Both the position numbers and the translations under genes were made by a program. A stretch of DNA of 64,000 bases from Acidobacteriota bacterium (GTDB lineage: Bacteria; Acidobacteriota; Terriglobia; Bryobacterales; Bryobacteraceae): contig JACTMJ010000013.1 of NCBI GenBank assembly GCA_014584705.1, positions 62,001-126,000 on the forward strand, read 5' to 3'. The notes beneath the pieces are model-generated. The model was given only the letters and a program-made list of their open reading frames with translations. It was not told where the DNA came from and did no database searches. Shown here piece after piece: positions 40,512 to 62,455 of the stretch (within the stretch, counting starts at the first letter, position 1; every line of letters begins with the position of its first letter).

Positions 40512-41190
40512 ATGCGGATCCTAGTGGTGGAGGACGAACCGCAGATGGGGAACCTGCTGCAATCGGGTTTGCAGGAGGAGGGCCATACGGTGGTCGTTTC
40601 AACCGACGGTAAGGATGGGCTCGCAACTGCCGTGCAATATCCATTTGATGCGATTGTCCTTGATGTGATGTTGCTGGGGCTCGATGGATCTATGGTTGCC
40701 AAGCGTTTGCGGGCGGCGCGCATCGCAACGCCCATCCTGATGTTGACAGCCAAGGACGCCATTCCGGACATGGTTCATGGGCTCGATGCCGGGGCGGACG
40801 ACTATCTCACCAAACCGTTTTCCTTCGAGGTGTTCCTAGCGCGTCTTCGGGCGCTGTCCCGACGAGGAAAAGATACCTTGGCCCCGGTGTTGCGGGTGGG
40901 CTCGCTCGAACTCGATCCCGCCACTCATGAGGTTACCCGTGGCAGTCGCCGAATCACCTTGACGCGCACGGAGTTCGTCTTGCTGGAGCTTTTGATGCAC
41001 AGACCGGGCCAGGTAATGACCACGTGAACGAATCCTAGACAGCGTCTGGGGATTTGATCGTAACGTCGAGAGCAACACCATCGATGCCTTCGTTCGATTG
41101 CTACGAAATAAAATCGACGGCGAAGACGAATCAAAGCTAATTCACACGGTTCGGGGCGTGGGATACGTGCTCAGGGAGGACTCCGAGTGA
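40512..41190 (+). pseudogene. OmpR-family response regulator, frameshifted in the DNA-binding domain
   Basis: Receiver domain complete: RILVVEDEPQMGNLL, Asp in DAIVLDVMLLGLDG, LTAKD and the KPF lysine. The winged helix begins normally (VGSLELDPATHEVTRGSRRI; LTRTEFVLLELLMHRPGQVM) but a TGA appears after MTT at 41025. Removing one base near 41020 restores RERILDSVWGFDRNVESNTI, DAFVRLLRNKI and HTVRGVGYVLREDSE to the TGA at 41188. As it stands the protein lacks the recognition helix and wing. Confidence 0.9.
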
Positions 41191-41486
41191 CGGAGCGTCT
41201 ACCCATCAGACCGCGTTTGACGCTGTGGTATTCCACCGTGCTCGCTGTCTGTCTGGTTGCCTTTGGCGTCTTTACCTTGCGTTGCGCGATTCCACGGGAC
41301 TTTACGTGCGCGTTCGGACGCCAAATTACGGGCCTTTACGGGCGCTTTTGCGGGACTTTGCGTGCGGGGATTCTCTTCTTCCTGAAACACCAGAATGATG
41401 AACCCATAGTAGGCGAACGCTTCATTGTGGAAATCGCACCCGGAATGCCTGCGGCAACCGCACCGCCGGGGGCGGGGAAAAGGTGA
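41187..41486 (+). pseudogene. Truncated sensor histidine kinase, N-terminal membrane segment only
   Basis: GTG start overlaps the regulator stop (GTGA), the standard arrangement. The first ~32 residues, LPIRPRLTLWYSTVLAVCLV, AFGVFTLR, are the typical first helix of an EnvZ/QseC-like kinase. After TLR the sequence changes abruptly to an unrelated Cys/Phe-rich stretch and stops at 41486. No HAMP, HisKA or ATPase domain remains. The deletion ends close to the start of the CHAT locus. Confidence 0.8.
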
Positions 41487-41644
41487 AATCGGGTGTGGGA
41501 AACGTCGATCGTGGTTGGGTAGGGAGGCCTATCCAGATGGACTCGGAGCTCCTTTTTCAGTGTTGCAGGTGTAAATTTATACTGCGCTGCTAGCTCGTAT
41601 AAGCTAGATTGCTGGCATTCTATGAGCAAGGAGGATCTGTCGGA

Positions 41645-44317
41645 ATGCTCAGTGCTCAGAAATCCTTGTCGTGCTGCATGCTCACCTTCGCACTCGCGTG
41701 GCTGGTGACGCTGATCCCGAACGCAAACGCGCAACCATCGGCAGATCCTGAAAAGCTCTTGGCAGAGGCCGAGCGCCTGGCTTGGTTCAAATCGTGGGCG
41801 AAGGCGGAGCCACTTTACGCGGAAGCCGAAAAGCTCTTCGCCCAACGCGACGACGAGCGAAACGCCCTCTACGCGAGAGTCGGGAAGATCCGTGGGCAGT
41901 TGCCGCGACGCCCGGTGGCGCAGGTATCGCAGGAGCTCGAAGATATCCTTGGCCTGCCGATTGCCCAATCCGATGAACCCCTTCGGCTGCGCTGCCTCAC
42001 CATCAAGGGAGAGACGGAAGAAGATTTCGACCCGACCCTCGCGGTTGAGTCCTGGAGCGAAGCCCTGCAGATAGCGAAACGTTTGAACGATGCGCGATGG
42101 GTGAACCGGGCGCAAGGAGAACTGGGTGTCATCGCCGGGTTACAGGGCGATATGAACGCTGCGATCATGCAGCTTGGTACGGCGCTGAAGGTGGCGGAAA
42201 CGAATGGTGATACCCCTTCGGTTGTCCGATGGATGACTATTTTCGGCCACGGATTTGTCCAGTTCGGTCGCACCGAGGGCGCTCTGGTCTACTACGACAA
42301 GGCCTTGGAGGCCGCAAATGCGTCGCAGGAGATTGGCGTTCCTGTGATGACGTATCTGGGCAAAGGCGAAGCATTGGCCGAGCTCAACCGGTTCGGCGAA
42401 GCAGAGAAGTTGCTGACTGAGGCTCTCGCAATGGCAATGGAGACTGGTGCGCTAGGCTACCAGGCCGAGCTGAAGATGAAACTGGGACTGATTGCCAGCA
42501 AACAAGGTAAAGCGAAAGACGCAAGATCCCTCCTCGAAGAAGCCTCTGATCTTGCTGGTCAGGCCGGTGGCCACCGACTTCTTGCAGAGGCCAAGCTAGA
42601 ACTTGCCCGAATTCAGCGATCATCCAAGGACCTCAATGCTGCGAGCAAATCGCTGAATGAGGGTACGGCGTACGCCCGGAATCTGAATGAGCCATTTCTG
42701 CTGCCCAAGCTCCTGGGCGAGCACGCTAGCCTGCGCCTGGAGCAAGGAAATACCAGTGAAGCGCGAGAACTACTGGAAGAGGCTACGGACATCCTGGAGT
42801 CTATGTTGGCGAAGACCAGTAGCCCTTGGTTGAAGAGCCGTGTCTTCGGCGTAATGGATCAGGTTTTCCTGGCCAGATTGGATCTCGAAGGTTCCACTGC
42901 CGCCAGCCCCGCTCATCTGTTCGCGGTGGTTGAGCAGGCCCGGGGCCGTGTGTTGGCCGAGATGCTCTTGTCTAGGGCGAGTGCGAAACTACAGCGCACA
43001 CCAGAATCCATCGCCGGCGAGCGGCAACTGGCGGAACTGCAGTCCCGGTTGTACGAGGCTAAGACACGCAAAACTAGAAAGGCGCTGCTAGATGAGATCT
43101 TCTTCGCCGAGGCTCGAATGGCCCCAGCGGAAACGCGCCGTTTTCACTCCGAGATGGTCGAATCCGCGCGCAAACCGGTGACTCTGAAGGATGTTCAGGA
43201 AACACTTCATCCAGACGAGACTCTCGTCGAATTCGCAATCACCAGGAATTCCGTGTATGGCATCGAGATCACGGCGGAGCGTGCGGCAGTTCACCAACTG
43301 GGACCAGCGGCGGAGGTTGTCCGATTGACAAAAGAACTTGCAGAAGCAATTGAAAAGCAAAGTGACATTGACCGGCCCGCCGCGGCGCTCGGCCGAATCC
43401 TTTTCGGAGGAATGTCCTCAATCCGCGACCATGATCGAATCACCATCGTCCCGGATGGTCCGCTCCATCGAATCCCGGCCGAACTGCTGCGCGCGGCGAA
43501 CGGTAAACCTCTTCTCGAAACCCACGTCATCTCTTACGCGCCCTCGGCTTCAGTATTCTCGATAATTCGCCGGCGCCCAATTCCACGCTCACTACCCAGA
43601 CTGGCCCTTGCTGTCGCGTCTTCTCCAGAACAGGCGGATCCCAACCTAGTCTCCGATGCCTCCCTCGCCCCAATCGGAAAAGTTGCACGGGGTATCTTCG
43701 ACGTGGACGGAACTTCGTTGCCCCCTTTGCCCGCCGCGGCGGACGAAGCTCGTAGCGTGGCTTCGCTCCTTGGCGCCCAGCCAGACGACATTCTCCTCGG
43801 CGCTTCGGCGACTGAATCGACTGTGAAAGGAAGGGCACTGGGCGAGTATCGAATCCTCCATTTTGCGGCACACGGTCTCGTGAGTTCCAAGTATCCGGAG
43901 CGTTCCGCCCTTCTCTTACGGAAGAGCGACGGGGAAGATGGGCTCCTTCAGGCGAGGGAAATCCTGAGGATGAACCTCCGCTCCGACCTCGTAACGCTGT
44001 CCGCCTGCGACACGGGGAGCGGAAACACCTTCGGCCAGGAGGGCGTAGCAAACCTCGTTCGGCCGGTCCTTGCCGCGGGTTCACGAAGCGTCTTGGCAAG
44101 CCTTTGGGGCGCCGACGATACATTCAGCCTCATGCTGATGAAAGCCTTCTATCGCAATCTTGCCGAGGGGATCGATGCCGGCGAGGCACTCCGTCAGGCA
44201 AAACTGGCGATGATCAAACGTTTCGGCCCGAACGCGACACCCCGGCTTTGGAGTGGCTACTTGCTGTACGGTGACAGCACGGCTTCTATTCCAACCATCC
44301 GAAGTGCCGCACGTTGA
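41645..44317 (+). CDS. Secreted TPR-CHAT domain caspase-like protease
   Basis: 890 residues from ATG 41645, preceded by AAGGAGGATCTGTCGGA. An N-terminal signal peptide or anchor (SCCMLTFALAWLVTLIPNAN, then AQ) is followed by 8-10 TPR-like helical repeats (~35-430), a helical linker (ALLDEIFFAEARMAPAETRR), then the CHAT domain (~560-880). The catalytic dyad is visible: His743 in LHFAAHGLVSS and Cys788 in LSACDTGSG. CHAT proteases are caspase/separase relatives activated through their repeat domains. It starts a two-gene unit with an S41 protease and lies opposite a sigma/anti-sigma pair. Confidence 0.92.
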   Translation: MLSAQKSLSCCMLTFALAWLVTLIPNANAQPSADPEKLLAEAERLAWFKSWAKAEPLYAEAEKLFAQRDDERNALYARVGKIRGQLPRRPVAQVSQELEDILGLPIAQSDEPLRLRCLTIKGETEEDFDPTLAVESWSEALQIAKRLNDARWVNRAQGELGVIAGLQGDMNAAIMQLGTALKVAETNGDTPSVVRWMTIFGHGFVQFGRTEGALVYYDKALEAANASQEIGVPVMTYLGKGEALAELNRFGEAEKLLTEALAMAMETGALGYQAELKMKLGLIASKQGKAKDARSLLEEASDLAGQAGGHRLLAEAKLELARIQRSSKDLNAASKSLNEGTAYARNLNEPFLLPKLLGEHASLRLEQGNTSEARELLEEATDILESMLAKTSSPWLKSRVFGVMDQVFLARLDLEGSTAASPAHLFAVVEQARGRVLAEMLLSRASAKLQRTPESIAGERQLAELQSRLYEAKTRKTRKALLDEIFFAEARMAPAETRRFHSEMVESARKPVTLKDVQETLHPDETLVEFAITRNSVYGIEITAERAAVHQLGPAAEVVRLTKELAEAIEKQSDIDRPAAALGRILFGGMSSIRDHDRITIVPDGPLHRIPAELLRAANGKPLLETHVISYAPSASVFSIIRRRPIPRSLPRLALAVASSPEQADPNLVSDASLAPIGKVARGIFDVDGTSLPPLPAAADEARSVASLLGAQPDDILLGASATESTVKGRALGEYRILHFAAHGLVSSKYPERSALLLRKSDGEDGLLQAREILRMNLRSDLVTLSACDTGSGNTFGQEGVANLVRPVLAAGSRSVLASLWGADDTFSLMLMKAFYRNLAEGIDAGEALRQAKLAMIKRFGPNATPRLWSGYLLYGDSTASIPTIRSAAR

Positions 44318-44329
44318 GGAGATCATGCA

Positions 44330-45565
44330 ATGAGCTTTCTTACGGAGACCCAGCGCAAGTCAGTCCTTCAAGCCGTCCTCAAGGTGATCGGTGACAAGTT
44401 CATAAATCCCGGTTCACCACCCCCGAATGGCGGTGGTCTCGATAACCAATACGGGGAAGCTATACGAGGGGCCAACGATCCCGAAACCTTCGAGGCAGCG
44501 ATGAACAAGTTGCTCCAGGCACTGGGCATCAGCCATACAGGCTTTTTTCACGAAACGAAGCCACGCGCTGGGGGCAAGATCGCTCTCGCCTCGACGTTCC
44601 TGCGAGCCCCGACCCAAGACGGTGATCGCTGGGTGTTCCAGGACGTACACCCCGGCGGAGCGGCACATCGCGCAGGTATTGCCCCTGGGGACATCCTGCT
44701 TCGAGTGAACGGAACAGAAATCGAGGCACCCACACCCCTATCATTTCAGTTGGGCGAAAACTACCAGGTTGAGCTGCGCCGCGTGGACAACTCCGTAGTG
44801 AAATTCGAGATCTCCCTCCCGGGCTCCAAGGAAAAGAAACGTCCGCTCATCGTCCCTGAGCAGGTGGTCAACGCGGAAAAGCTATCCGATGGAGTCGGTG
44901 TCATCCGCATAAGTATGTTCCCGGGAGTTCTCGGGATGGACGTTGCCCGGGACATCAGCCGTGCGGTTCAGGAACTGGACACCAGCCGGTTGATCTTCGA
45001 TCTTCGAGGGAACTCTGGAGGTGGTATCGGATGCCTACGCGTGATGAGCCTATTTTGCCCCGACGCCCGCGGCGTCGGCTACAGTCTCGGCAAGAAGCAG
45101 ATCGCCAACGGCACCAGCAAGGAAAGTCTCCCGCGCTTTGGCCGCATCCCATCTTCGAAGCTCCAGGTGATCCCGCTCGCGCTCCGCTTTGCCACTGCCG
45201 GACGCGCAATTGCGATCTTCTCCGAAGGTCTCGGCCCGCGCAAGCACCACGGAAAGACCGTTATCCTGGTCAATGAGCACTCAGCCAGCGCCACCGAAAT
45301 GGTGGCCGCATTTGCATCTGAGGAACGCCTCGCTCATTTGGTCGGTGTGAAGACGCCCGGCCGCCTAGTCGGTGCCAGTTCGTTCAAGGTGGGATTCGGC
45401 TACCGGGTCGCATTGCCGGTGGCAGCCTACTTCACCTGGGTCGGCAAGAACTTGGAAGGCGTCGGCGTCGCGCCAGACACTGACCTGCCAATCGGCTTCG
45501 AAGATCTCAGGGCCGGCCGAGATCCTCAGTTGGAAAGCGCCCTCGCAATCGCCAGTGCGATGTAG
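44330..45565 (+). CDS. S41 family (CtpA-like) peptidase with PDZ domain
   Basis: 411 residues, 12 bases after the CHAT stop. PDZ-like part at ~100-165 (VHPGGAAHRAGIAPGDILLR). The S41 core has DLRGNSGGGIGCLRVMSLF, the nucleophile Ser318 in NEHSASATEMVAAF and the base Lys in GVKTPGRLVGASS about 25 residues later. No signal peptide is evident, unusual for a CtpA-type protease, so it may work in the cytoplasm or be exported otherwise. Pairing with a CHAT protease suggests a proteolytic cascade (inference). Confidence 0.9.
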   Translation: MSFLTETQRKSVLQAVLKVIGDKFINPGSPPPNGGGLDNQYGEAIRGANDPETFEAAMNKLLQALGISHTGFFHETKPRAGGKIALASTFLRAPTQDGDRWVFQDVHPGGAAHRAGIAPGDILLRVNGTEIEAPTPLSFQLGENYQVELRRVDNSVVKFEISLPGSKEKKRPLIVPEQVVNAEKLSDGVGVIRISMFPGVLGMDVARDISRAVQELDTSRLIFDLRGNSGGGIGCLRVMSLFCPDARGVGYSLGKKQIANGTSKESLPRFGRIPSSKLQVIPLALRFATAGRAIAIFSEGLGPRKHHGKTVILVNEHSASATEMVAAFASEERLAHLVGVKTPGRLVGASSFKVGFGYRVALPVAAYFTWVGKNLEGVGVAPDTDLPIGFEDLRAGRDPQLESALAIASAM

Positions 45566-45601
45566 CGTCGCTCCCCCAGCAAATCCCCCAACAAGATCCG
45601 A

Positions 45602-46297
45602 TCACTCAACACGAACCGAATACTCGCGCCAGGATTCCTCCTCGTGCCGGATCGCCAGACGGTGGCTCCCTGCTTCCACGCCAGCGGTATCCACATCGAC
45701 AACCAATGTCGTCACGAAGTCCACGATCATCGCCTCCCCACTTGCACTCGCCATCACCGTCCCACCATCGCCACGGATCTCCACCAAATAGCTCCCAGGC
45801 TCCGCACCCACCGGCAGTAGAATTCGCAGATGCGTGCGCCCTTTGGGGATTACCGGTACCCCCTCGCTGGGTAGCGCGCCCTCCCCGCGCAGGGGCGAAG
45901 TGCGCCGCAAATCCAGAGTTGCGACGACCACCTCGCCAGTCCCCGGCGCTCGAGCCTCCCGCCTCTCCGGTACACCAACCCGTGTCCACCGAAACAGCCA
46001 CAACCCGCAAAGCGTCACGAACGCAATCGCCGCTGCGGCAATCCACAGTCTCCTGCCAAACGTCCGCTTCTCCAACTGCGCTCGAATCGTCTGAAACTCC
46101 TGATAGCAGGGGGAGCACTCGGCCAAGTGGTCTAACCAGGAGTCATTGATCGGCCGTTCATGCCGCGCAAGCTCCTCCAGTACCTCCCGCGGCGGGCAGC
46201 CCAGCCGATCCGGATTCGGGCTGGCATTGCGAAACAGCTCATCGGCTTCCGGGATGCTGGAAACGGGTTTGCGTGGCGGATCTGATGGGAAAGGCAT
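45602..46297 (-). CDS. Anti-sigma factor with zinc-finger (zf-HC2-like) and one membrane helix
   Basis: 231 residues from ATG 46297 (the frame is open to 46378). Putative zinc site His57-x3-Cys61-x2-Cys64 in LDHLAECSPCYQEF, as in ZAS-type anti-sigma factors. One membrane helix at ~84-103 (LWIAAAAIAFVTLCGLWLF), then an external beta-rich domain of ~120 residues (THLRILLPVGAEPGSYLVEI). It would hold the ECF sigma encoded just upstream at the membrane. The outer domain is a natural target for a protease, including the CHAT/S41 pair encoded convergently. Confidence 0.85.
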   Translation of the reverse strand: MPFPSDPPRKPVSSIPEADELFRNASPNPDRLGCPPREVLEELARHERPINDSWLDHLAECSPCYQEFQTIRAQLEKRTFGRRLWIAAAAIAFVTLCGLWLFRWTRVGVPERREARAPGTGEVVVATLDLRRTSPLRGEGALPSEGVPVIPKGRTHLRILLPVGAEPGSYLVEIRGDGGTVMASASGEAMIVDFVTTLVVDVDTAGVEAGSHRLAIRHEEESWREYSVRVE

Positions 46298-46387
46298 GGT
46301 GTAGGGTCCTCGCTCCTTTTCATCGGGCCGCGTGCAGGGGCACATTAGCGGAGCCGCAACTTCGTGCAAGTGCGGCAAAGATGTCGA

Positions 46388-46936
46388 TCATTGCTGTTTC
46401 TCTCCCTTCCCGCCAAGCAACCGCTTCAGCTTCTGGCGAGTGCGAAACACGATCTGGTCAACCCGCGATGCTGACAGGTGCATTGCGGCTGCGATCTCCT
46501 TGCTGGAGTATCCTGCCTGCTTGCGGATCAGAATAGAGCGCTCTTCCTGCGAGAGTTGTTCCAGCACCTCGCGGTAGAACACCCTCTGCTCCACGTCCTC
46601 TGGATTCCCCAGCCGGGCTGGGAACTGAGCCAACTGGTTGGCGGCCTTCAAGGAGTTGTCCGTGTTTCGCTCGATCGAGCCGTCCGCGCGGCGCAGGTAC
46701 GAAATCGCTATGTTGTGGAGTATGGTCCAAGCGAAACCGTGCAGTTTCTTCACAGGCCCGTGGCGATCCTCATGCCGATGAATGCGGCGGCCTGTTTCCT
46801 CCAAGAGGTCGGCAATCACCGCCTCGTCATTCAATCTTGGGAAGCGGCGGCGGAAGCGCGGCAACACCCTGTCCAGGGAGGATGTGATGCGTCCGGAAAG
46901 GGGATTTCCGTTCTCGTCGGTAAGCATCAAAGCCAT
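46388..46936 (-). CDS. ECF-type RNA polymerase sigma factor
   Basis: 182 residues. Region 2: DEAVIADLLEETGRRIHRHE, KLHGFAWTILHNIAISYLRR. Region 4: LEQLSQEERSILIRKQAGYS, SKEIAAAMHLSASRVDQIVF, RTRQKLKRLL. There is no region 1 or 3, as expected for ECF factors. ATG 46936 has AGGTGGGCGCG upstream; a GTG at 46945 is an alternative. Followed by its anti-sigma on the same strand (91-base gap). Its targets are likely to include the divergent gene at 47090 and the CHAT operon, but no matching promoter pair was proven. Confidence 0.9.
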   Translation of the reverse strand: MALMLTDENGNPLSGRITSSLDRVLPRFRRRFPRLNDEAVIADLLEETGRRIHRHEDRHGPVKKLHGFAWTILHNIAISYLRRADGSIERNTDNSLKAANQLAQFPARLGNPEDVEQRVFYREVLEQLSQEERSILIRKQAGYSSKEIAAAMHLSASRVDQIVFRTRQKLKRLLGGKGEKQQ

Positions 46937-47089
46937 CGCGCCCACCTGTTCGGATTAAGACTTTTCCGAAGCCTCCGGAGGCGAAGTGTCCAATCAAGTT
47001 TGCACTCGTGAACGAAGAAATCCGCCTGCGCCAGGAAAGATTCCCCACTTGCGAAAGCGTTCTTCTTATTGGAAGGAGTGTCTCCGCCC

Positions 47090-47500
47090 ATGTTCACCAA
47101 TTGGGGTTGCCCGCTGTTCCCGATGGAAGGGGCTCGATTTCGTATCGGAGGGGGCTCCGGGGACGCCCCAGCCGAGCCGGATGGAATTTGCGAGGTGATC
47201 ACCGTACCTGCGATGGATGAGCTTCCATACGCGTTCGAACTCGAGTCTGGCCAGGTTCTCGACGCCACGATCACCAGCGAGCAACCCTTCGGCGTATTGC
47301 TCTGTGACGATGCCATCTATGAAGAGTGGATTGACCAAGGCATGCTCACCCCGTTGCCGGAGAGTTTCCACCTCTACCAAGCCAGCCAGACCTTGCATAT
47401 TGTTTCCTTTTCGCCCACCCAGCGCGGACACTACATCCTGCTGCTCGTGAATCCGTTGGCATCACCCATTGAAGCAGTGTTCAATGCGAGGACCAGCTAA
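47090..47500 (+). CDS. Small beta-rich protein of the CHAT/sigma locus, unknown
   Basis: 136 residues; GGAAGGAG lies 11 bases before ATG 47090. No signal peptide. Predicted mostly beta: YAFELESGQVLDATITSEQP, FGVLLCDDAIYEEWIDQG, TLHIVSFSPTQRGHYILLLV. The pattern recalls GOLD/pre-peptidase C-terminal-type beta-sandwiches (an impression, not a database match). It is transcribed divergently from the sigma factor with about 150 bases between, so it is a good candidate for a sigma-controlled gene or a protease substrate. Confidence 0.6.
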   Translation: MFTNWGCPLFPMEGARFRIGGGSGDAPAEPDGICEVITVPAMDELPYAFELESGQVLDATITSEQPFGVLLCDDAIYEEWIDQGMLTPLPESFHLYQASQTLHIVSFSPTQRGHYILLLVNPLASPIEAVFNARTS

Positions 47501-47877
47501 CGCAGTTTGATCTCGCCTTTCGCCGCAAGCCAGTGAGCGAGCGCCGTGTTCACCAGAACGTTCATGGAGCTATTGCGCTCATCGGCCAGCTTCTTCAGCT
47601 TCTTATGAAGGGTCCGAGGGATGGTGATGGTGGTATCGCGCACCATCTTCTCCTCGATGCTGATCATCTTCACGGCGGAGAGATCGACGGCCTCTAACGC
47701 ATCACTGGCCATGTTGCTGAGATCGCCCCGGTAGCGGATCATCGTCCGCAGTACATCGTTGATCGTCTCGTTCATCCGGATAGCCAGCTTGATCGTCGAT
47801 TCCGCCGGCGCCGCCGCCTTCTTGTCCTTAGGGCGCGGTGTCCCACCCTCCAATCGAACCACTCGAGCCTGCACCAT
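47497..47877 (-). CDS. Ribbon-helix-helix (CopG/Arc-like) DNA-binding protein
   Basis: 126 residues. Start has GGAGGCTCTG before ATG 47877. The C-terminal part is a typical ribbon-helix-helix: DTTITIPRTLHKKLKKLADE, RNSSMNVLVNTALAHWLAAK. The N-terminal half is Lys/Ala-rich, with a helix MNETINDVLRTMIRYRGDLS. It ends convergently with the small beta-rich gene (4-base overlap). It could be a local repressor or the antitoxin half of a lost pair; no toxin gene is adjacent. Confidence 0.75.
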   Translation of the reverse strand: MVQARVVRLEGGTPRPKDKKAAAPAESTIKLAIRMNETINDVLRTMIRYRGDLSNMASDALEAVDLSAVKMISIEEKMVRDTTITIPRTLHKKLKKLADERNSSMNVLVNTALAHWLAAKGEIKLR

Positions 47878-48309: not shown

Positions 48310-49275
48310 TTGGCGGACCCTTTTTGGACAGAGTGCCGGAATAGCTTTAAGAACGCGTTAACGGCTTATTCCTGGGTTCACCAGGTTCATCCTATTGTCA
48401 GCGCGTGGAAGGACAGCTATTCTGAGAAACGTTCCTCTTATCTGGAATTTTCGGCGTCCACCATGTCTGGCCCCAATGCCCCACTGACAGGCTTTGCCGC
48501 GCTTCTCGCAAGCGTGAGGCCGCGCGTGCCCAGCAAATGGACGCAGCGCTACCTTCAGCAGATCATCGACAGAGGCAATAACCGCATTCGGGTTTTGCAG
48601 GACCGTATCAACGGCGTGACGACCGGCAGAGTGATGCCGGATCTGGAACAGGTGACGATTGGCAGCGGAAAGCATTTCACGCTGGCCGTGTTGTTCCTGG
48701 ATATCTGCGGATTCTCGGCGAGGCCAAACTGGACCAATGAAGAACAGAAGCTGATGCTCGCCACCATGAACATTTTCATGGCCGAGATGCTGAACATCGT
48801 CCGCGATTTCGGCGGCACGTTCGAGAAAAACACAGGTGATGGGTTGATGGCCTATTTCGGGGAAGGTTCACTGAAGCCCGCAGAACGCGTCCAACCCGCT
48901 GTGGAAGCAGCAGTCGTAATGCACTATGCGAACGACAATTTGTTCACACCGTGGTTCCAGCAGCGCGGAATCGAGCCGATCCGCTTCCGAGTGGGTATCG
49001 ATATCGGACCCGTAACGATCGCGCGCGTCGGACTGAGGGGCGATGAAAGCAGCATCGTCGCGATCGGAACGCCCGCGAATATCGCATGCAAGCTGATGAA
49101 CCGCATTCCAAACGGCGGCATCTGCATCGGAAACGAGGTCTACGCCAATCTTCCGAACAACTGGACTCAGGCGTGCCGTCAGTGCGATCAGCCCAGCGGA
49201 TTTGTATACGTGGCCAACCAGGCGCCATATCTTGCGTGGGAACTGAACCATCGTCTTTCACCGCCAACCGCATGA
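48310..49275 (+). CDS. pycC: Pycsar nucleotide cyclase (PycC)
   Basis: 321 residues from a TTG start (the frame is closed by TGA at 48298; no ATG before residue 52, no clear ribosome site). Class III cyclase core: first metal Asp131 in LAVLFLDICGFSARP, second Asp177 in EKNTGDGLMAYFGE, and AIGTPANIACKLMNRIP with Asn257/Lys261 where adenylate cyclases have Asn/Arg. The N-terminal helical region YSEKRSSYLEFSAS is shared by Pycsar cyclases. These sense phage infection and make cCMP or cUMP. The membrane effector follows after 7 bases, which settles the assignment. Confidence 0.88.
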   Translation: MADPFWTECRNSFKNALTAYSWVHQVHPIVSAWKDSYSEKRSSYLEFSASTMSGPNAPLTGFAALLASVRPRVPSKWTQRYLQQIIDRGNNRIRVLQDRINGVTTGRVMPDLEQVTIGSGKHFTLAVLFLDICGFSARPNWTNEEQKLMLATMNIFMAEMLNIVRDFGGTFEKNTGDGLMAYFGEGSLKPAERVQPAVEAAVVMHYANDNLFTPWFQQRGIEPIRFRVGIDIGPVTIARVGLRGDESSIVAIGTPANIACKLMNRIPNGGICIGNEVYANLPNNWTQACRQCDQPSGFVYVANQAPYLAWELNHRLSPPTA

Positions 49276-49282
49276 GGGTTTT

Positions 49283-50032
49283 ATGAGCGATACACCTGCG
49301 CCGCCGTTGACTTCACCGCTGATCGCGCCGCCAGAGCCGCTTCCGGGCCGCTCGGGGCATTCGAACGAGAGCCAAGCGCTGGCCGCAAGCTCCCAGACCT
49401 CCTCCTCACCATCAGCGTCCGATCTAGATGAGGCGGCCAAACAGCAGTTTCTGTGGCAGACGCATTCGTACCTGAACGAATATGCCCGGTTTGGGGACAC
49501 GAAGGCAGGGTTCGCAGGAACCGCCGCCGCCGCGCTGCTAGGCGCGCTCTACAGCGCGAAGGCGCATATTCCTCTGCTTCAAACTTCTATCGGACAGTGG
49601 CCGTTCTCCAACTGGCTCATTGCGGCCGCGTTGGGTCTGTTAATCGCAGCCGCCACCATTGCCGTGTGGACGATCCGGCCACGGCTCGGCAGCACGCAAG
49701 ATAAAGGCCTCATCTTTTGGGGAAGCGTCGCCGCGCACAAGAAGCTCGAAGAGCTGCAAACATCGTTTCACGGACAATCAGCGCGGACGCTCAACGACCA
49801 TCTTCTTCATCATGTTTTCGACATATCGTCAAAGGTCTGTGTCCCCAAATACCGGTATGTATCGATTTGCATGGCGCTGACTTTGGCCGGGGGATTAATG
49901 GGCGGAGCAGCGCTGATGATGCAGGATTTGAGGCAACTCCAGATCGCCACACCTCCCGCTGTCGCAGCAACTCCTGCTCCTGAGGCGAAGGAACCGACGG
50001 TGGCGCCGCTACCGGCGAAGTCAAAGGAATAA
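49283..50032 (+). CDS. pycTM: Pycsar transmembrane effector (PycTM)
   Basis: 249 residues. After a ~50-residue Pro/Ser-rich leader comes the Pycsar-effector domain (DUF5706-like): FLWQTHSYLNEYARFGDTKA, with membrane helices at ~74-92, ~108-132 and ~193-214 and a cytoplasmic loop KKLEELQTSFHGQSARTLND. The C-terminal tail is Pro/Ala-rich. Known role: on binding the cyclic pyrimidine nucleotide it disrupts the inner membrane and aborts infection. The N-terminal disordered extension is longer than in reference effectors. Confidence 0.85.
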   Translation: MSDTPAPPLTSPLIAPPEPLPGRSGHSNESQALAASSQTSSSPSASDLDEAAKQQFLWQTHSYLNEYARFGDTKAGFAGTAAAALLGALYSAKAHIPLLQTSIGQWPFSNWLIAAALGLLIAAATIAVWTIRPRLGSTQDKGLIFWGSVAAHKKLEELQTSFHGQSARTLNDHLLHHVFDISSKVCVPKYRYVSICMALTLAGGLMGGAALMMQDLRQLQIATPPAVAATPAPEAKEPTVAPLPAKSKE

Positions 50033-53650: not shown

Positions 53651-55027
53651 TCATCGTCGTTGGCTGTCCACTTGCTCCGGTTTGAGAAATGTCAAATCTC
53701 GATTCACTCGCACATTGAACCGATACCCGACCGGAATCCGAATCGTCGGCTGCACGTTCAGGTTCCGTCTTGTCACCTGCGCACCGAACTGCGACAGCTC
53801 ACGCCCGACAGCGGTGCCAGCCATTTCGCCGGCTGACGGGTATGCGAGAATCCCGCCACGCGGTGACTGCGAGAGTTGAAACGCGGCGCTGAAGACACTG
53901 GTGAGTGCAGCGAAACCCAGCAGTCGCCGATAGTGGTTGTCCACCTTGTGCCGCAGTCCGCTTTGGCCGGAAGCGTCCTGGCTGGCCATCCCGTCAAGGC
54001 GAATCGACGACCCGTCTGGAAAGATGATGCGATTCCAGACAACCATCAGGCCGTCCTGGCCGTAGGCGATGCGGGAGTCGTAAACCCCCACGAGGCGGGA
54101 ACCTTGTGGGATCAGCAGATATTTTCCAGTTGCGGTGTCGTAAACGTTCTCACGGACGAGCGCCCTCACCTCCCCGGGCAGGTCCGAATTGAGCCCGTGC
54201 TCCAAGACGGCGGGGATGTCCCACCCCGCCTTGATTTCGTAAGGGCTCAAGGGCGCGCGCCGTGTCGCGGGAAACACATCGTCAACGGATTCTTTACGAG
54301 CACGCTCAACAAACCGCTCTCGGTCCTCCTGTACCCGCGCCGAAGCGCCCTCATCCTCGGTAGGGTGTTCACGGAGTTCTGCGATCATGGCCTGGGGGGC
54401 GATTCTCTGCCCGCCGGCGTCGGTTCCACGACCCATCACGCTCCGAACAAGGTCCGTGAGTGATCCAGTTCCTGGCGCGGAAATCCCGTCGGTGCCGGTC
54501 CTCGTCGCACTGGAGGCCTGCGATCCGCTGCCAGTCGCGGTCGGGGCTTCCATCGCTTGTTGTTCCAATTGAAAGGCGGCAATCCTCCGTTTCTGTTCTG
54601 GAGTCAGAGCCGGTATTGTCGATGGTGGTGTGGGTTGTCGAACAGCAACGGTTTGCGTATCAGGTCGCCAAGGAGTTCCCGGTCGTGGGCCGCCCAGTTC
54701 GTCCCAATCCTCCGCATGTTCTGTTTCATCGCTGTCGGCATCGTCGTCTGTCGCAGGCGCACCGGCGAGGCTCTTGGCAGGAACATCGGCGGAAATCGTT
54801 TTCCCGACCTCGGTCGCCGCGGTAAGGGATTTGGCTCCATCCACTTGCATGAGATCCACGGATCGTTGACGGCGGGTGATGACTCCGTATCCAATCAGCG
54901 CCACGACCGCGCAAACAACGATCAGAGCCAGTACGCCAGCCCGCCTGCTCAAACGAACGGCTGTTGGTGGGGCAGGGTAGAGATCGATACCGCTGGGAGA
55001 TTCGAGCTTTCCGAATGGATTCGTCAT
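53651..55027 (-). CDS. trbI: TrbI/VirB10-family conjugal transfer protein
   Basis: 458 residues. Short cytoplasmic N terminus, one membrane helix at ~28-50 (RRAGVLALIVVCAVVALIGY), a long Pro/Ala/Ser-rich periplasmic linker, then the TrbI domain: KAGWDIPAVLEHGLNSDLPG, LLIPQGSRLVGVYDSRIAYG, MASQDASGQSGLRHKVDNHY and VPVGYRFNV-like IRIPVGYRFNVRVNRDL. It spans both membranes in the mating channel core. Its start overlaps the trbG stop (ATGA). Last gene of the trb operon. Confidence 0.92.
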   Translation of the reverse strand: MTNPFGKLESPSGIDLYPAPPTAVRLSRRAGVLALIVVCAVVALIGYGVITRRQRSVDLMQVDGAKSLTAATEVGKTISADVPAKSLAGAPATDDDADSDETEHAEDWDELGGPRPGTPWRPDTQTVAVRQPTPPSTIPALTPEQKRRIAAFQLEQQAMEAPTATGSGSQASSATRTGTDGISAPGTGSLTDLVRSVMGRGTDAGGQRIAPQAMIAELREHPTEDEGASARVQEDRERFVERARKESVDDVFPATRRAPLSPYEIKAGWDIPAVLEHGLNSDLPGEVRALVRENVYDTATGKYLLIPQGSRLVGVYDSRIAYGQDGLMVVWNRIIFPDGSSIRLDGMASQDASGQSGLRHKVDNHYRRLLGFAALTSVFSAAFQLSQSPRGGILAYPSAGEMAGTAVGRELSQFGAQVTRRNLNVQPTIRIPVGYRFNVRVNRDLTFLKPEQVDSQRR

Positions 55028-56217
55028 TGCGCTTCCCCCGGTCCACCTTCGAAGCGCGCCGCAAAGCCATCTCCCTTCACCTTGCCGCGGAACGTCCCGC
55101 GAACAATGTCCAGCCGCTTTGCCTTCTTTCCCTCACCAAGAATCAACGCCGCATGCTCGAACAGCCGGTCCACCACGTAGACGGAACCCTTCACGCGGTA
55201 GTTGACCATCTCAGGACCTTTCTCTCCCACGACGACCAACACCGGCAACTCGCGTTGTAGAACTTCCTCTCGCATCTGAATGTAGCTCTTTTCGCCATCG
55301 TCGAAGATCCGGACCGGTCGCAATTCGGGGTGCTTCCCGAGCACCCGGTAATCGAAGTAGAGATCCTCAATCGTGCGCAACGGCGCCAGGCTTGAATGCT
55401 CCGCCGCGTCTTTGCGGCGCTGCTCCCGCTGCAACAAGTGCGCCTGCCACCGCGCCGTTTCTGCGGCAGGGTATTCAAAGCTGGTTCGGGCAATGTACTC
55501 ATCGGTCGTGGAGACCAGTCGCACATAGTAGAGCCGCCGGTCCGTAGTTAGAAGCAGGTTGGTGTCAAGACCGGGTCCCTTCGGTTTCACCACGATCAAC
55601 GAACTTTCCAGCGGACCATTGCCCAAGGTTGCCGGATCAATGAGCCACCGCACGGCATCGCCAATGTGAGGCTCCCCAATTAGCCTTTCACCGGATTCGA
55701 GTTCAATCACGCAGAGCCGCAGCGGCGCGCAAACAACCGTGGGCAAGCCAGCACCATAGGTGTAGACCACGCGCCCATCCTCGCCGGGACTTGGGAGCGC
55801 ACTCTGGCTCTTCCAGGATCCATCCACGTCAATCGCCTGGCTGGCATCTTCGGGCAACGGCACTTTCTTTACCGCAACGAAATCCTCCGGCACCTCGCTG
55901 TTCGCTTCCGTCTGCGCTGAATGTCCGTCGCCCTTCAGATGGGCACTTGCTTTCGAGGAAGGGCTCGGAGTCATTGGTGTGCCTTGCGCGGATGGCACCG
56001 GGTCCCTCCGCAACTCGTCAATAAGCGATCCGAATGGATACTCCACCGGCGATGGCACACCTGGTGCATAGCCGACGGGAATTGGCTTGGATGAAGAGGG
56101 TGATACCGTTCCCGAGTCGCGTTCTGGTTTCCTCCCCTGGCCAATTCCCGTCGTGACCGTGATTGCCAGTCCCAACGACAGCGCACATATTGATTTCGAT
56201 AGCGCAAGCACACCCAT
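55024..56217 (-). CDS. trbG: TrbG/VirB9-family conjugal transfer protein
   Basis: 397 residues; signal-type N terminus (SICALSLGLAITVTTGIGQG). The central and C-terminal VirB9/TrbG parts are clear: RVVYTYGAGLPTVVCAPLRL, CVIELESGERLIGEPHIGDA, LTTDRRLYYVRLVSTTDEYI and YFDYRVLGKHPELRPVRIFD. VirB9-like proteins form the outer layer of the core complex with TrbI and a TrbH/VirB7-like lipoprotein. No lipoprotein gene was found in this cluster. Confidence 0.92.
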   Translation of the reverse strand: MGVLALSKSICALSLGLAITVTTGIGQGRKPERDSGTVSPSSSKPIPVGYAPGVPSPVEYPFGSLIDELRRDPVPSAQGTPMTPSPSSKASAHLKGDGHSAQTEANSEVPEDFVAVKKVPLPEDASQAIDVDGSWKSQSALPSPGEDGRVVYTYGAGLPTVVCAPLRLCVIELESGERLIGEPHIGDAVRWLIDPATLGNGPLESSLIVVKPKGPGLDTNLLLTTDRRLYYVRLVSTTDEYIARTSFEYPAAETARWQAHLLQREQRRKDAAEHSSLAPLRTIEDLYFDYRVLGKHPELRPVRIFDDGEKSYIQMREEVLQRELPVLVVVGEKGPEMVNYRVKGSVYVVDRLFEHAALILGEGKKAKRLDIVRGTFRGKVKGDGFAARFEGGPGEAQ

Positions 56218-56229
56218 CTCTTCTGCCTC

Positions 56230-56976
56230 CTACAAAACCTTTGACCAACTCGCATTAGTTATGTACACACCCAGCGGGTTCACTCGTGCCAACTGCTCGT
56301 CCGTCGGCGGATTCACTGCAATGGTGAACGAGCCCTTCCATGCCTGTTCCTCTTGCACATCGCCGCCCAGGCCGCGCGTGGTCTCAACCCACTCCACCTC
56401 GTACGTCTGTTCACTGCTCGCGTAGATCGCCTTCACGTCCACGCTCAACATTGCGGTTTGTGCCCGCTTCTGCGGCGGTTCCTTGCGATAGAACTCGCTC
56501 ACCTCCAACTGCGCGGCGCTGCCCCTCGCGATCATGGCGTATACCCGATCAATCGCTTTCCGCTGCGAGATCCCGTCCGAGGTCACTGTCCGCAGATCCG
56601 AAACCCACTGAATCAGGGCCGCGCGCTTCAATCGGCCATCCACAACCGGTGCGGCCTCCGCAAATCCCGAAGCAACCGGTCGGCCCAGGCTGTCCACCGC
56701 AACGACAAAAGGGACTATCCGCGTCTGCAGGGAAATCGCAACGATTCCTCCCGTAGCGACTAGCGAAACAGCGAGGCCGCCAAACGCCACTATCCGCCAG
56801 TTCCGTGCCCGAGTGATCAGATCGCCATAGCGCTCATCCCACTCTCTACGGGCCGCGAGGTAACGGTTCTCCACCGGCTTTGGCGGCACACAAGACCGGC
56901 GCTCACCCTCCGCTGGAACCGCCGGCCTGCACTGCTCAGCAGTGGTCGAAAGGTCCAATGCTTCATGCGATGTCAC
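56230..56976 (-). CDS. trbF: TrbF/VirB8-family conjugal transfer protein
   Basis: 248 residues. Cytoplasmic N terminus, NRYLAARREWDERYGDLITR (a conserved TrbF opening), one membrane helix at ~65-88 (VAFGGLAVSLVATGGIVAIS), then the periplasmic VirB8 fold: VPFVVAVDSLGRPVASGFAE, IQWVSDLRTVTSDGISQRKA and VEWVETTRGLGGDVQEEQAW. It nucleates assembly of the inner-membrane channel. Overlaps trbL stop by four bases. Confidence 0.93.
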   Translation of the reverse strand: MTSHEALDLSTTAEQCRPAVPAEGERRSCVPPKPVENRYLAARREWDERYGDLITRARNWRIVAFGGLAVSLVATGGIVAISLQTRIVPFVVAVDSLGRPVASGFAEAAPVVDGRLKRAALIQWVSDLRTVTSDGISQRKAIDRVYAMIARGSAAQLEVSEFYRKEPPQKRAQTAMLSVDVKAIYASSEQTYEVEWVETTRGLGGDVQEEQAWKGSFTIAVNPPTDEQLARVNPLGVYITNASWSKVL

Positions 56977-58538
56977 TCACCATCCTCCATTCGCAAGTTC
57001 GGCGGTATCGCCGGCGGTGCGTAATCCGGGGGAATCGCCCCTTGCGCGGCGCGCGTCAACTGAGTCCCCACCGCCAGGCTTTTCGCGGCGTTGCTGCTCG
57101 CGCTCACAATCCTCGTTGCACGGCCCCCGGCCGCACCCAGATCCGTCTGTTCCTTCGACACACCGGAGAGTTCCGAAGCACTGCCCGCCACCGAAGAGGA
57201 CCCACCAGCACCGCTACGAGCCGGCGATACATCCGAGGAAATACCCCGATCCCTTCGCATCGGAGGCGACGCTGAAGCGGACCGCGGCTGGGAAGCCTCG
57301 GCGTGAGAACTCCTTGATGCATCCGTGAAGCCGGGCGCTGAACCGCCAGTACTCCCCGCGCCTCCAGAGCGATTGTCCCCGCCGGGTCGTCTGGGCGCAG
57401 AACCTGCGGAACCCCCTTTGGGCGCCCCGCCAGCCGCACCGCCTCCGCCCCCGAAAGGGGCCATGCCATTTGTTGCACTTCCCGATGCCCCAGCCCCGGC
57501 GGCTTGGCTCACCGACACCGCCGCGCCGCGAGCGGCCACCAGCTTGGCGCCCAGCGCCACCGCCCCGGCCACGGCCGCGCTTGCGACCAGTGCCCCCTGG
57601 GCAAGACCACCCACAGTGCTCACGGCATCCCCGCCCGTAAGCGCAGGCGCGCCACCGAGAATGCCCGCTGCCATCTTCGGTACGTTCCAGCAGATCATCA
57701 GCAAAAGAACTGCCGACGCAGCGATGTCCAGTGCATCAATGGCGGGCTGCGCGCTCGCGGCAATCGCTTCCGCGGCAACGGCCCAATTCCGAGTAAGCGC
57801 GAGGCTGGCGCCCAACAGCAGATACAGCACCATCACCTTCACGCCGGTAGAGACGGCGAATGCAATGTAGCGCTCCACATACGGGGCCGTCCAACGCGAC
57901 CCACCGAAGCCAAGAAACAAGAAACCAGCGCCAATCACCAAGTAGCTTTCTACCAAGGTGACGACCAGTTGTACCGTGATCCCGAGAAAAGCTAGAAATG
58001 AGAGCAGCGCCGCGAACACCAACGCCAGTGCCGTGCCGAAGCTAGCCATCCAACCGGATTCCGCGGCGGCAGAAAGCAGATTGCCCACCACGTTCAATCC
58101 GATTGCCAGCACGTCCGATGGCGCAAGCGAATTGAGCCCAGACGCCCGCTGTCCGTAGATCTGAAAACTGTCGATGATCCGTGGGATCCAGTCTGCGCCG
58201 AACGTCAGTAGGGCGAAGAACGCGCCGATGAACATCATTTTGCGGATCAGCGCCGCCGTCCATCCCTGCAGGTCGGTCTTCTCAAGCACCAGGATTGCGC
58301 CGGTCCATGCAAACTCAATCAGTGCCAAGATCCCGAACAGCCGATTCGCATAGCCCGCAGCAGTGTTCAGCCAGGCCGTCCGTACGGAACGAAACTGATC
58401 AAGCATCACGCTGGGGGAGGTCTGCGCAAATGCCGAATCGGCAAGCACCACCAGCGCCAACGCGCACATAATGCAAAGACGCGTGAATAGGCTCCAGTTG
58501 AGGCCGTGAAAACGCCAACCCGTCGACAATCTCATCAC
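56973..58538 (-). CDS. trbL: TrbL-family conjugal transfer membrane protein
   Basis: 521 residues. Signal/first helix (ALALVVLADSAFA) then 6-7 membrane segments including SFLAFLGITVQLVVTLVESY, GAGFLFLGFGGSRWTAPYVE, RYIAFAVSTGVKVMVLYLLL. The last third is a long Gly/Ser/Ala-rich disordered tail (GGGGAAGGAPKGGSAGSAP), typical of TrbL. It forms the polytopic VirB6-like inner-membrane part of the channel. Start coupled to trbJ. Confidence 0.92.
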   Translation of the reverse strand: MMRLSTGWRFHGLNWSLFTRLCIMCALALVVLADSAFAQTSPSVMLDQFRSVRTAWLNTAAGYANRLFGILALIEFAWTGAILVLEKTDLQGWTAALIRKMMFIGAFFALLTFGADWIPRIIDSFQIYGQRASGLNSLAPSDVLAIGLNVVGNLLSAAAESGWMASFGTALALVFAALLSFLAFLGITVQLVVTLVESYLVIGAGFLFLGFGGSRWTAPYVERYIAFAVSTGVKVMVLYLLLGASLALTRNWAVAAEAIAASAQPAIDALDIAASAVLLLMICWNVPKMAAGILGGAPALTGGDAVSTVGGLAQGALVASAAVAGAVALGAKLVAARGAAVSVSQAAGAGASGSATNGMAPFGGGGGAAGGAPKGGSAGSAPRRPGGDNRSGGAGSTGGSAPGFTDASRSSHAEASQPRSASASPPMRRDRGISSDVSPARSGAGGSSSVAGSASELSGVSKEQTDLGAAGGRATRIVSASSNAAKSLAVGTQLTRAAQGAIPPDYAPPAIPPNLRMEDGE

Positions 58539-59269
58539 TTCCCAGCCTCGAATCCGCGGCCGTCCCCGCTGCGTCCGCCGAATCGGAAGAACCGCTCTGT
58601 CCCTGCCTCGCGTGCCGCTTCCTTCTGAATTTGTGCCGCCTGGAAGGCCTGCTTGCTCTGCAAATCGGCCAGCATCAACTGCCGCAGCTTCATCAACTGC
58701 TGCACCTGCTGCTCCATGATCTGGTTGCTCACCTGCAGCGCCCGCATCCGCCCCTGGCTGGTCCGGGCCATTCCGCGAAGCTGGTCGAGCACCGCTTGCT
58801 CATCCCGCAGCTGCGCCCCCTGCATCCCCGCTGCCTTTAGCGTCCCCAACGTCGTATCCAGGCTCGTATCTGCCCATTCCTTGTAGTCGCGAAACCACGC
58901 CCGCTCGCGATAGCCCCAACCTTTGAACCGGCTGCGAAACTCCACATCCAGATTGGCCATCGAGTATGCCAGCGCCCGGCCACCCTGCACGACCCCGGCC
59001 AGCTGGTTGATATCGTCCATCACAGGCCCAAACACCTGCATGGGAAGCTCGAGCGTGTTCTTCGCCATATCCAGCACCATCTGGATTTGCTGGCGCAGCT
59101 CCTCGCCTTGGCGGATGTAGGCGTCAACGAGTTGCGCGTGATTCAACAACTGCGTCCACTCCGTCGCGTAGCCCACCGTCCCGCCGCGTGCCACCGGTTT
59201 CGGAATCAAAACCGCGCATAACGCCGTAACCAGCACCAGCCGTCCAAACGTCCGCAATCCTCGAATCAT
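58535..59269 (-). CDS. trbJ: TrbJ-family conjugal transfer protein
   Basis: 244 residues from ATG 59269 (overlaps the trbE stop as ATGA; the frame continues upstream inside trbE). Signal peptide LVLVTALCAVLIPKPVA. Family parts: GYATEWTQLLNHAQLVDAYI, RQGEELRQQIQMVLDMAKNT and a coiled-coil with Gln/Met-rich segments (QIMEQQVQQLMKLRQLMLAD). TrbJ is the VirB5-like pilus-tip or surface-exclusion-linked component. Long coiled-coil is normal. Confidence 0.9.
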   Translation of the reverse strand: MIRGLRTFGRLVLVTALCAVLIPKPVARGGTVGYATEWTQLLNHAQLVDAYIRQGEELRQQIQMVLDMAKNTLELPMQVFGPVMDDINQLAGVVQGGRALAYSMANLDVEFRSRFKGWGYRERAWFRDYKEWADTSLDTTLGTLKAAGMQGAQLRDEQAVLDQLRGMARTSQGRMRALQVSNQIMEQQVQQLMKLRQLMLADLQSKQAFQAAQIQKEAAREAGTERFFRFGGRSGDGRGFEAGK

Positions 59270-61761: not shown

Positions 61762-61767
61762 CCGCCC

Positions 61768-62079
61768 TCACCTCCAGCCCCGCGGCGTCGTCACCGGCAG
61801 CCCATGCACTCGCCCCTTCGCCGGATAGAAGCTCCGGTACCGCACATGCCGCAAGTACACCTGCCGCAGCAGCGGATCCGCCTTCCCCATTCGCGAGAGC
61901 ACGGCCACGCTCGCGAACCACAGCGCCACGCCGGCAATCACGCCCCACCAAGTCACCAGTGCGAACACCAGCATCGCCGCCATCAGCGCCGCGAACAGCA
62001 CCAGTTCCCGGTCCCCGCCCAGCAGCAGTTGCGGACGGTTCGCGCTCTGATGAATCACAATCTCGCGTGGCCGTTCCAT
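61768..62079 (-). CDS. trbD: TrbD/VirB3-family conjugal transfer protein
   Basis: 103 residues from ATG 62079 (GGGGAGAACGG upstream; open to 62094). VirB3-like: short N terminus (REIVIHQSANRPQLLLGGDR), two membrane helices (ELVLFAALMAAMLVFALVTW; GVIAGVALWFASVAVLSRM) and the conserved tail MGKADPLLRQVYLRHVRYRS. It works with VirB4 at the inner membrane, six bases ahead of the trbE start. Confidence 0.9.
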   Translation of the reverse strand: MERPREIVIHQSANRPQLLLGGDRELVLFAALMAAMLVFALVTWWGVIAGVALWFASVAVLSRMGKADPLLRQVYLRHVRYRSFYPAKGRVHGLPVTTPRGWR

Positions 62080-62103
62080 CCGTTCTCCCCTCACAAACCC
62101 CGC

Positions 62104-62430
62104 CTACAGCACCGACGCCCCGGCCACGCCGAACAAGCTGGTCATGAACCCGGCGCCCAGCACCAGAAAAGCAATTGCCAGCACCGCCACGCAGGAGCGC
62201 CGCGCGAACTCGCTCAGCTCTCCGCCGAACACCAACGTCCCGCCCGCCACCATCAGCGCGATCAGCGAAATCGACAGGGCCACCGGACCCGTCAGCGACA
62301 GAGCCACCAAGCTCAACGGCGCCTCCCACGGCAATCCACCACCAGCCGTACCCGCCAGCGCCACCGCAGCCAATCCCATCAGCGCCACCATCAACGTCCC
62401 AATCAGGCGCAATCCACGCAGTACCCGCAT
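62104..62430 (-). CDS. trbC: TrbC/VirB2-family conjugal pilin
   Basis: 108 residues from ATG 62430 (GGGAGGAAACAGT before it). Signal region RLIGTLMVALMGLAAVALAG, then two hydrophobic helices (MVAGGTLVFGG region and SCVAVLAIAFLVLGAGFMTS), the layout of cyclised or linear TrbC/VirB2 pilin. It sits between the TrbB ATPase and TrbD genes, its normal place. Confidence 0.88.
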   Translation of the reverse strand: MRVLRGLRLIGTLMVALMGLAAVALAGTAGGGLPWEAPLSLVALSLTGPVALSISLIALMVAGGTLVFGGELSEFARRSCVAVLAIAFLVLGAGFMTSLFGVAGASVL

Positions 62431-62455
62431 ACTGTTTCCTCCCGTTTCCAAGCGC

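Follow-up and report, generated by a model that had tools for sequence, protein, structure and literature searches.

A conserved Acidobacteriota gene set joins a predicted exported CHAT protease and a tricorn-type S41 protease to an ECF sigma factor and its membrane anti-sigma factor

In the type III-E CRISPR system CASP, cleavage of an inhibitor has been reported to regulate a sigma factor (PMC10028731), and for the extracytoplasmic function (ECF) sigma factors of ECF54, whose gene context includes subtilase and carboxypeptidase genes, proteolytic control by neighboring proteases including CHAT has been proposed (PMC8999054). Anti-sigma factors are also subject to regulated intramembrane proteolysis (RIP), which for RseA (through DegS, RseP, and ClpXP), RsiW, and RsiP consists of an outside cut, a membrane cut, and cytosolic degradation (PMC10028731, PMC8103513). 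Here we analyzed a 64,000-nucleotide stretch (the window) of contig JACTMJ010000013.1 from an Acidobacteriota bacterium of the family Bryobacteraceae, in which five neighboring genes encode a TPR-CHAT protease, an S41/PDZ protease, an anti-sigma factor, an ECF sigma factor, and a small beta-rich protein (Table 1). This five-gene grouping is a real, conserved module whose linkage lies far above chance. It has in common with ECF54 an ECF sigma factor with a neighboring CHAT and a proposed proteolytic control; ECF54 has been reviewed as being without an anti-sigma factor (PMC8999054), whereas the module, compared with it by description, has a dedicated membrane anti-sigma factor and an S41 partner.

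The original prediction for this stretch had treated the five genes as one locus. All five were present in the positions and orientation it had given and the grouping was correct, but the larger conjugative island around them was absent from it. The CHAT and S41 genes lie on the plus strand with a gap of 12 bp, and the ATG start of CHAT, in an open frame that begins at 41609, is preceded by an AGGAGG site. The anti-sigma and sigma genes are convergent with the CHAT–S41 pair, and the small gene and sigma are transcribed divergently.

We compared a total of 36 S41-family loci, for which we use labels beginning with L for loci, G for genomes, and C for contigs; the window's genome is G000, and its module lies on contig C11. 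Related genomes supplied the f8 family loci (L177–L181 and L183–L187), not all of which are independent, and L081, which is the same contig as L041, was counted once. CHAT was found within 4 kb of S41 (≤4 kb) in 34 of the 36 loci, and of the two loci without a near full CHAT, L190 is truncated by the contig edge and L189 retains a remnant of CHAT. Across 61 related genomes, every full-length CHAT homolog of the window's clade that we examined had this S41 beside it, and none of 20 CHAT loci from other clades had it in the fetched flanks. When named genomes were scanned with the S41 alignment, seven close relatives (42–57% identity) came up, all from Acidobacteriota and all adjoining CHAT; the next S41 matches fell to 29% identity, and 0 of 73 such loci had CHAT or the anti-sigma nearby.

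When the phylum was scanned, S41 was present in 17 of 396 Acidobacteriota genomes, all 17 of which were inspected, and the anti-sigma was present in 15 of these 17 versus 8 of the 379 others (Fisher p = 1.2e-19). A profile detected the anti-sigma in 30 of the 36 loci, with a sigma-like gene adjoining it in almost every case; two contig ends of G016 were taken as one locus in this count, and in two of the 30 loci (G008 and G033 C161) the pair lies 14–16 kb from S41. Adjacency across genomes, on which the original prediction had staked its case, was thus conserved in this neighborhood co-occurrence search.

Gene order and strand differ between loci, yet the genes are retained, and their retention is therefore not simply inherited synteny. 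In some genomes the set forms a single tight operon, with the order sigma–anti-sigma–S41–CHAT in L037 and L038 and sigma–anti-sigma–CHAT–S41 in L042. More distant relatives (L226–L229) have sigma–anti-sigma–CHAT operons with no S41, away from secretion genes, and these S41-free sets make CHAT and the anti-sigma the apparent core of the module. The distance matrices of the proteins were correlated, with r values of 0.90 for CHAT/anti-sigma, 0.80 for CHAT/S41, and 0.73 for S41/anti-sigma. ECF pairs, CHAT proteins, and S41 proteins all occur commonly in Acidobacteriota, as would suit an ECF operon that had come by chance to stand beside two unconnected proteases. The linkage data refute this explanation, to which we assign next to no probability: linkage is kept despite shuffled order over several families, co-occurrence reaches p ∼1e-19, and the next 73 S41 relatives stand apart from CHAT and the anti-sigma.

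The CHAT protein combines Pfam CHAT and TPR matches with the His-Cys dyad of a TPR-CHAT protease, and the His motif (HFAAHG) and Cys motif (SACDTG) were found in 34 of 35 homologs, the remaining one being cut. Nearly all complete copies carry an N-terminal hydrophobic segment, which among relatives of the window takes the form of a signal peptide and in the f8 family looks like a membrane anchor; the CHATs of L043 and L178 are exceptions, given the start codons chosen. In two other genomes, same-clade CHATs (L230–L234) adjoin TonB-receptor-like genes.

The anti-sigma has the features of a zinc-type (ZAS) membrane anti-sigma factor, namely an H57-x3-C61-x2-C64 motif, a single membrane helix, an outer domain, and a sigma neighbor, and H57, C61, and C64 are nearly invariant in the alignment. 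In its AlphaFold model, a single long helix crosses the membrane and the outer part is Ig-like (pLDDT 93–96 for this part), a predicted fold that fits a membrane-spanning, Ig-domain sensor. Foldseek gave generic Ig-like matches with low TM scores; among them was 3m86, a cysteine-protease inhibitor with an Ig-like fold, which at its low TM score we did not use as evidence. Neither the anti-sigma nor the small protein had a family match in Pfam or padloc. Since CHAT appears to be exported or anchored and the Ig-like domain is predicted to point outward, both should share a compartment, and CHAT should be topologically able to meet the outer domain of the anti-sigma. A second, soluble protein that consists of the zinc-type anti-sigma end alone, with no membrane helix, is encoded at L045:226–519, on a contig that also holds a full module with two sigma-like genes.

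The S41 protein is compact (411 residues). Like the tricorn-type S41B proteases, it has a PDZ domain, a Ser-His pair, a nucleophile Ser, and a Glu, and the Tricorn_C1 domain was matched in 7 of 14 homologs (best 1.4e-9); unlike them, it has no beta-propellers and belongs to a regulatory gene set. Residues S68-H69, S320, and E376 are conserved (31 of 34 and 31 of 34 for the Ser-His pair, 34 of 35 for the nucleophile Ser, and 35 of 35 for Glu), and the usual tricorn numbering, together with the match coordinates, would place them at tricorn S745, H746, S965, and E1023. At position 345, Arg replaces the Lys of Ctp, and this dyad position is Arg in 25 and Lys in 3 of 35 homologs. An export signal was found in no S41 homolog with an intact start, so the contrast drawn in the original prediction, a CHAT with a signal peptide beside an S41 without one, was borne out across the homolog family as well. 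Being tricorn-type, without the Ctp lysine, and without a signal peptide, the S41 is probably cytosolic, by these sequence features, and is therefore probably not the cutter of the outer domain. A role as a Ctp/Prc-type (S41A) periplasmic site-1 protease was ruled out by the active site and the missing export signal. The original prediction of a CRISPR-independent analog of CHAT-to-sigma control thus keeps its conserved gene set and a CHAT of fitting topology, and loses S41 as an outer cutter. A plasmid search with the S41 query returned only ∼25%-identical S41 peptidases.

The sigma gene product has sigma-70 regions 2 and 4 and the size of an ECF factor. The sigmas are very divergent between loci, and region 2 is hard to recognize in distant homologs and unrecognizable in some. 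For the small protein, an AlphaFold model built from three sequences was of moderate confidence, and its best Foldseek match was the TMED1 GOLD domain (TM 0.75); homologs were found only in L034 and L080, the window's close relatives.

CASP (also Craspase; Csx29, Csx30, and CASP-sigma) and the module have in common that a TPR-CHAT protease, a sigma inhibitor, and an ECF-type sigma are encoded together (PMC10028731), and on this shared logic the module could be a stand-alone relative of the type III-E system used for phage sensing. We consider this very improbable. Kinship of the sigma with III-E was rejected at 28.1 bits against NF041236, whose cut-off is 100. Unlike CASP, the module has no linked Cas7-11 (gRAMP): the island contig is without a RAMP match, the window genome's RAMP matches are solely on C13, and 5 of 10 module genomes have no RAMP match. 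Csx29 acts bound to Cas7-11, whereas the CHAT here is predicted to be exported, and the anti-sigma is a zinc-type, apparently membrane-spanning protein with an Ig-like outer domain. The module also differs in its extra tricorn-type S41 and in its location in conjugative islands and not in a CRISPR locus.

We propose that the module is an envelope-to-transcription switch, carried in the window genome by a conjugative island, a reading that we hold to be evenly poised between right and wrong. The zinc-type end of the anti-sigma would tether the ECF sigma to the inner membrane while the anti-sigma's Ig-like domain faces the periplasm, where an exported or membrane-anchored TPR-CHAT would receive a signal, probably read by its TPRs, and would cleave the anti-sigma in its outer part (site 1). 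The anti-sigma stub would then be freed by a housekeeping site-2 protease, for which the window genome encodes an M50 candidate, and the cytosolic tricorn-type PDZ-S41, where active, would destroy this stub and leave sigma free, much as ClpXP acts on RseA (PMC10028731). Free sigma would transcribe the module and, where the pair faces a secretion operon, probably conjugation genes too. We infer the two cleavages and the order in which they occur, as well as the signal and the regulon, from the observed gene set, its conservation and linkage, its domain and active-site content, the topology these predict, and the association with conjugative islands. The scheme would share with RseA-type RIP a single-pass anti-sigma cut outside, then in the membrane, and then in the cytosol. 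It would depart from RseA-type RIP in starting with a caspase-like CHAT and ending with a tricorn-type S41 dedicated to this task; the genes for both proteases are linked to those of sigma and, often, to a conjugative element.

Several results weigh against such a switch. In two S41–CHAT loci, L083 and L185, the anti-sigma was not found within ∼10 kb (four further loci without an anti-sigma are limited by contig ends), and joint inheritance alone may account for the correlated distances. The active site of S41 is partly lost in L037, L038, and L186 though the gene is kept beside CHAT, and S41 proteolysis is therefore not always needed; to judge by their residues, these degenerate proteins are possibly non-catalytic partners. 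Secretion genes are out of reach in L178, L184, L185, L187, L188, and L041, and genome G036 gave no TrbI match. A search for a promoter motif common to the sigma, CHAT, small-gene, and secretion operons, using a two-box and an ECF-like consensus, gave nothing convincing. S41 is lost, inactive, or replaced in places; the consistent part of the proposed switch is sigma, the anti-sigma, and the exported CHAT.

The promoter result also counts against a different explanation, in which CHAT and S41 are the output: the sigma pair would sense the envelope alone, and the proteases would be sigma-controlled effectors (in entry exclusion, against invaders, or directed at the host) carried as island cargo. 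We regard this as rather unlikely. The proteases do stand in an operon apart from the sigma pair in the window, L034, L039, and L043, the window island also bears Pycsar and a CBASS-type SMODS gene, and same-clade CHATs in G333 and G255 are partnered by a PhoD-like metallophosphatase gene and not by S41 (4 of 5 loci, L230–L234). Effectors of this kind are harder to reconcile with a CHAT exported to the side of the anti-sigma outer domain, with the closer tracking of CHAT by the anti-sigma than by S41 (r 0.90 versus 0.80), and with the S41-free sigma–anti-sigma–CHAT operons.

The proposed switch is associated with conjugative islands. In the window, the secretion operon encodes TrbI, CagX/TrbG, VirB8/TrbF, TrbL, TrbJ, TrbE/VirB4, VirB3, a VirB2-like protein, and TrbB; past it lie genes for a coupling protein (T4SS-DNA_transf), an ArdC-like protein, and ParA, and a tyrosine recombinase gene (Phage_integrase) adjoins tRNA-Gly at contig position 146.2–147.3 kb. 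With a secretion operon, a coupling protein, and an integrase at a tRNA end, the host island has the features of an integrative and conjugative element; its left end and direct repeats of the tRNA-Gly end were sought in the window and not found. The strongest TrbI copy lies ∼20 kb or less from CHAT–S41 in the window genome and in G008, G011, G044, and G059 (TrbI is single-copy in G000 and G008), and the chance of one such proximity is ∼1% for genomes of 3–8 Mb. In L039, L043, L182, and L190, the sigma gene and a secretion operon led by a VirB2-like gene lie head-to-head, and one XRE gene stands between the two in L177, L180, L183, and L186, with the same layout in L179 and L181. The sigma/anti-sigma pair of L223–L225 is likewise head-to-head with a VirB2-first operon, with S41 not seen and, on one of these contigs, a same-clade CHAT ∼10 kb further on. 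The pair faces a secretion operon in about 13 loci. Where the original prediction had looked to damage or phage sensing, the neighborhoods show conjugative islands and type IV secretion operons instead.

The head-to-head arrangement, together with the best TrbI within about 20 kb in five genomes, would also suit a narrower form of the switch that monitors the secretion or mating apparatus, in which mis-assembly or partner contact in the periplasm would activate CHAT and sigma would tune the secretion operon. Many complete modules are not near secretion genes, and we think this version improbable. A search of the literature on CHAT with conjugative elements in Acidobacteria found nothing.

Table 1. 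Genes of the module and associated features, in window positions unless a locus label is given
Feature	Position	Strand	Evidence
TPR-CHAT caspase-like protease, N-terminal signal peptide (MLSAQKSLSCCMLTFALAWLVTLIPNANAQ)	41645-44317	+	Pfam CHAT 4e-65, TPR_12 4e-17
S41 family serine protease with PDZ, tricorn type, without signal peptide	44330-45565	+	Pfam Peptidase_S41 1.8e-22 and PDZ
Predicted membrane-spanning anti-sigma, zinc-type cytosolic end, one transmembrane helix, Ig-like outer domain	45602-46297	-	Alignment, AlphaFold, Foldseek
ECF sigma factor	46388-46945	-	NCBIfam sigma70-ECF 58.4 bits (cut-off 42.9); Pfam Sigma70_r4_2 1.5e-8
Small GOLD/PPC-like beta-sandwich protein (predicted)	47090-47500	+	AlphaFold, Foldseek
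Ribbon-helix-helix (RHH) DNA-binding protein	47497-47877	-	Pfam RHH_1 4.6e-5
Conjugative type IV secretion operon, same island	53651-63493	-	Pfam
XRE-type regulator (f8 family)	L177:12027-12335; L180:12491-12814; L183:12701-13024; L186:12062-12355		

Several further genes stand near the module. An RHH homolog, 64% identical, adjoins the same module in L034 (tblastn). In the window, a Pycsar-like anti-phage pair adjoins the module at 48310–50032 (+), with a cyclase (padloc PycC 1.9e-24) and a PycTM membrane effector (4.4e-21). To the right of the window, the same island encodes a SMODS (CBASS-type) nucleotidyltransferase and a Schlafen/AlbA_2 protein (L074:4967–5899 and 2961–4109), and with the Pycsar pair the island thus carries at least two defense-like cargo units. 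Just left of CHAT, at 40512–41486 (+), are response regulator and histidine kinase genes, both apparently shortened, which is a possible sign of an island boundary or of decay. A noncoding stretch at 41300–41640 with a conserved core (GGCGGGRAAAAGG) lies 5' of CHAT in five close loci (window, L034, L035, L079, and L080); the core is single-copy in the window genome and is perhaps an old insertion-sequence remnant or site. In L036 (G033 C161, 840–7545), CHAT–S41 adjoins three BlaR1-like M56 peptidase genes and BlaI-like regulators. The window genome also has a separate type III-like CRISPR locus (L192, G000 C13, 4006–17420) with a 1221-residue multi-RAMP protein and two repeat arrays, between which lies a fusion of a reverse transcriptase with a Cas2-like domain.

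Three features look new: a predicted exported CHAT is paired with a protease of the tricorn type, the set is strongly linked to conjugative islands, and its distribution in Acidobacteriota is wide but discrete. No substrate is known for the majority of bacterial CHAT proteins, and the conserved set offers a candidate CHAT substrate, a compartment, and a readout in the form of sigma activity. We tentatively suggest, while leaning toward doubt, that in Acidobacteriota conjugative elements an outer CHAT and an inner tricorn-type protease may release an ECF sigma that switches on DNA transfer, by a CRISPR-independent CHAT-to-sigma route. If this is true, CHAT-to-sigma signaling would not be confined to CRISPR systems, a cytosolic tricorn-type protease would gain a probable dedicated job, and conjugative elements would have a new way to time their transfer.

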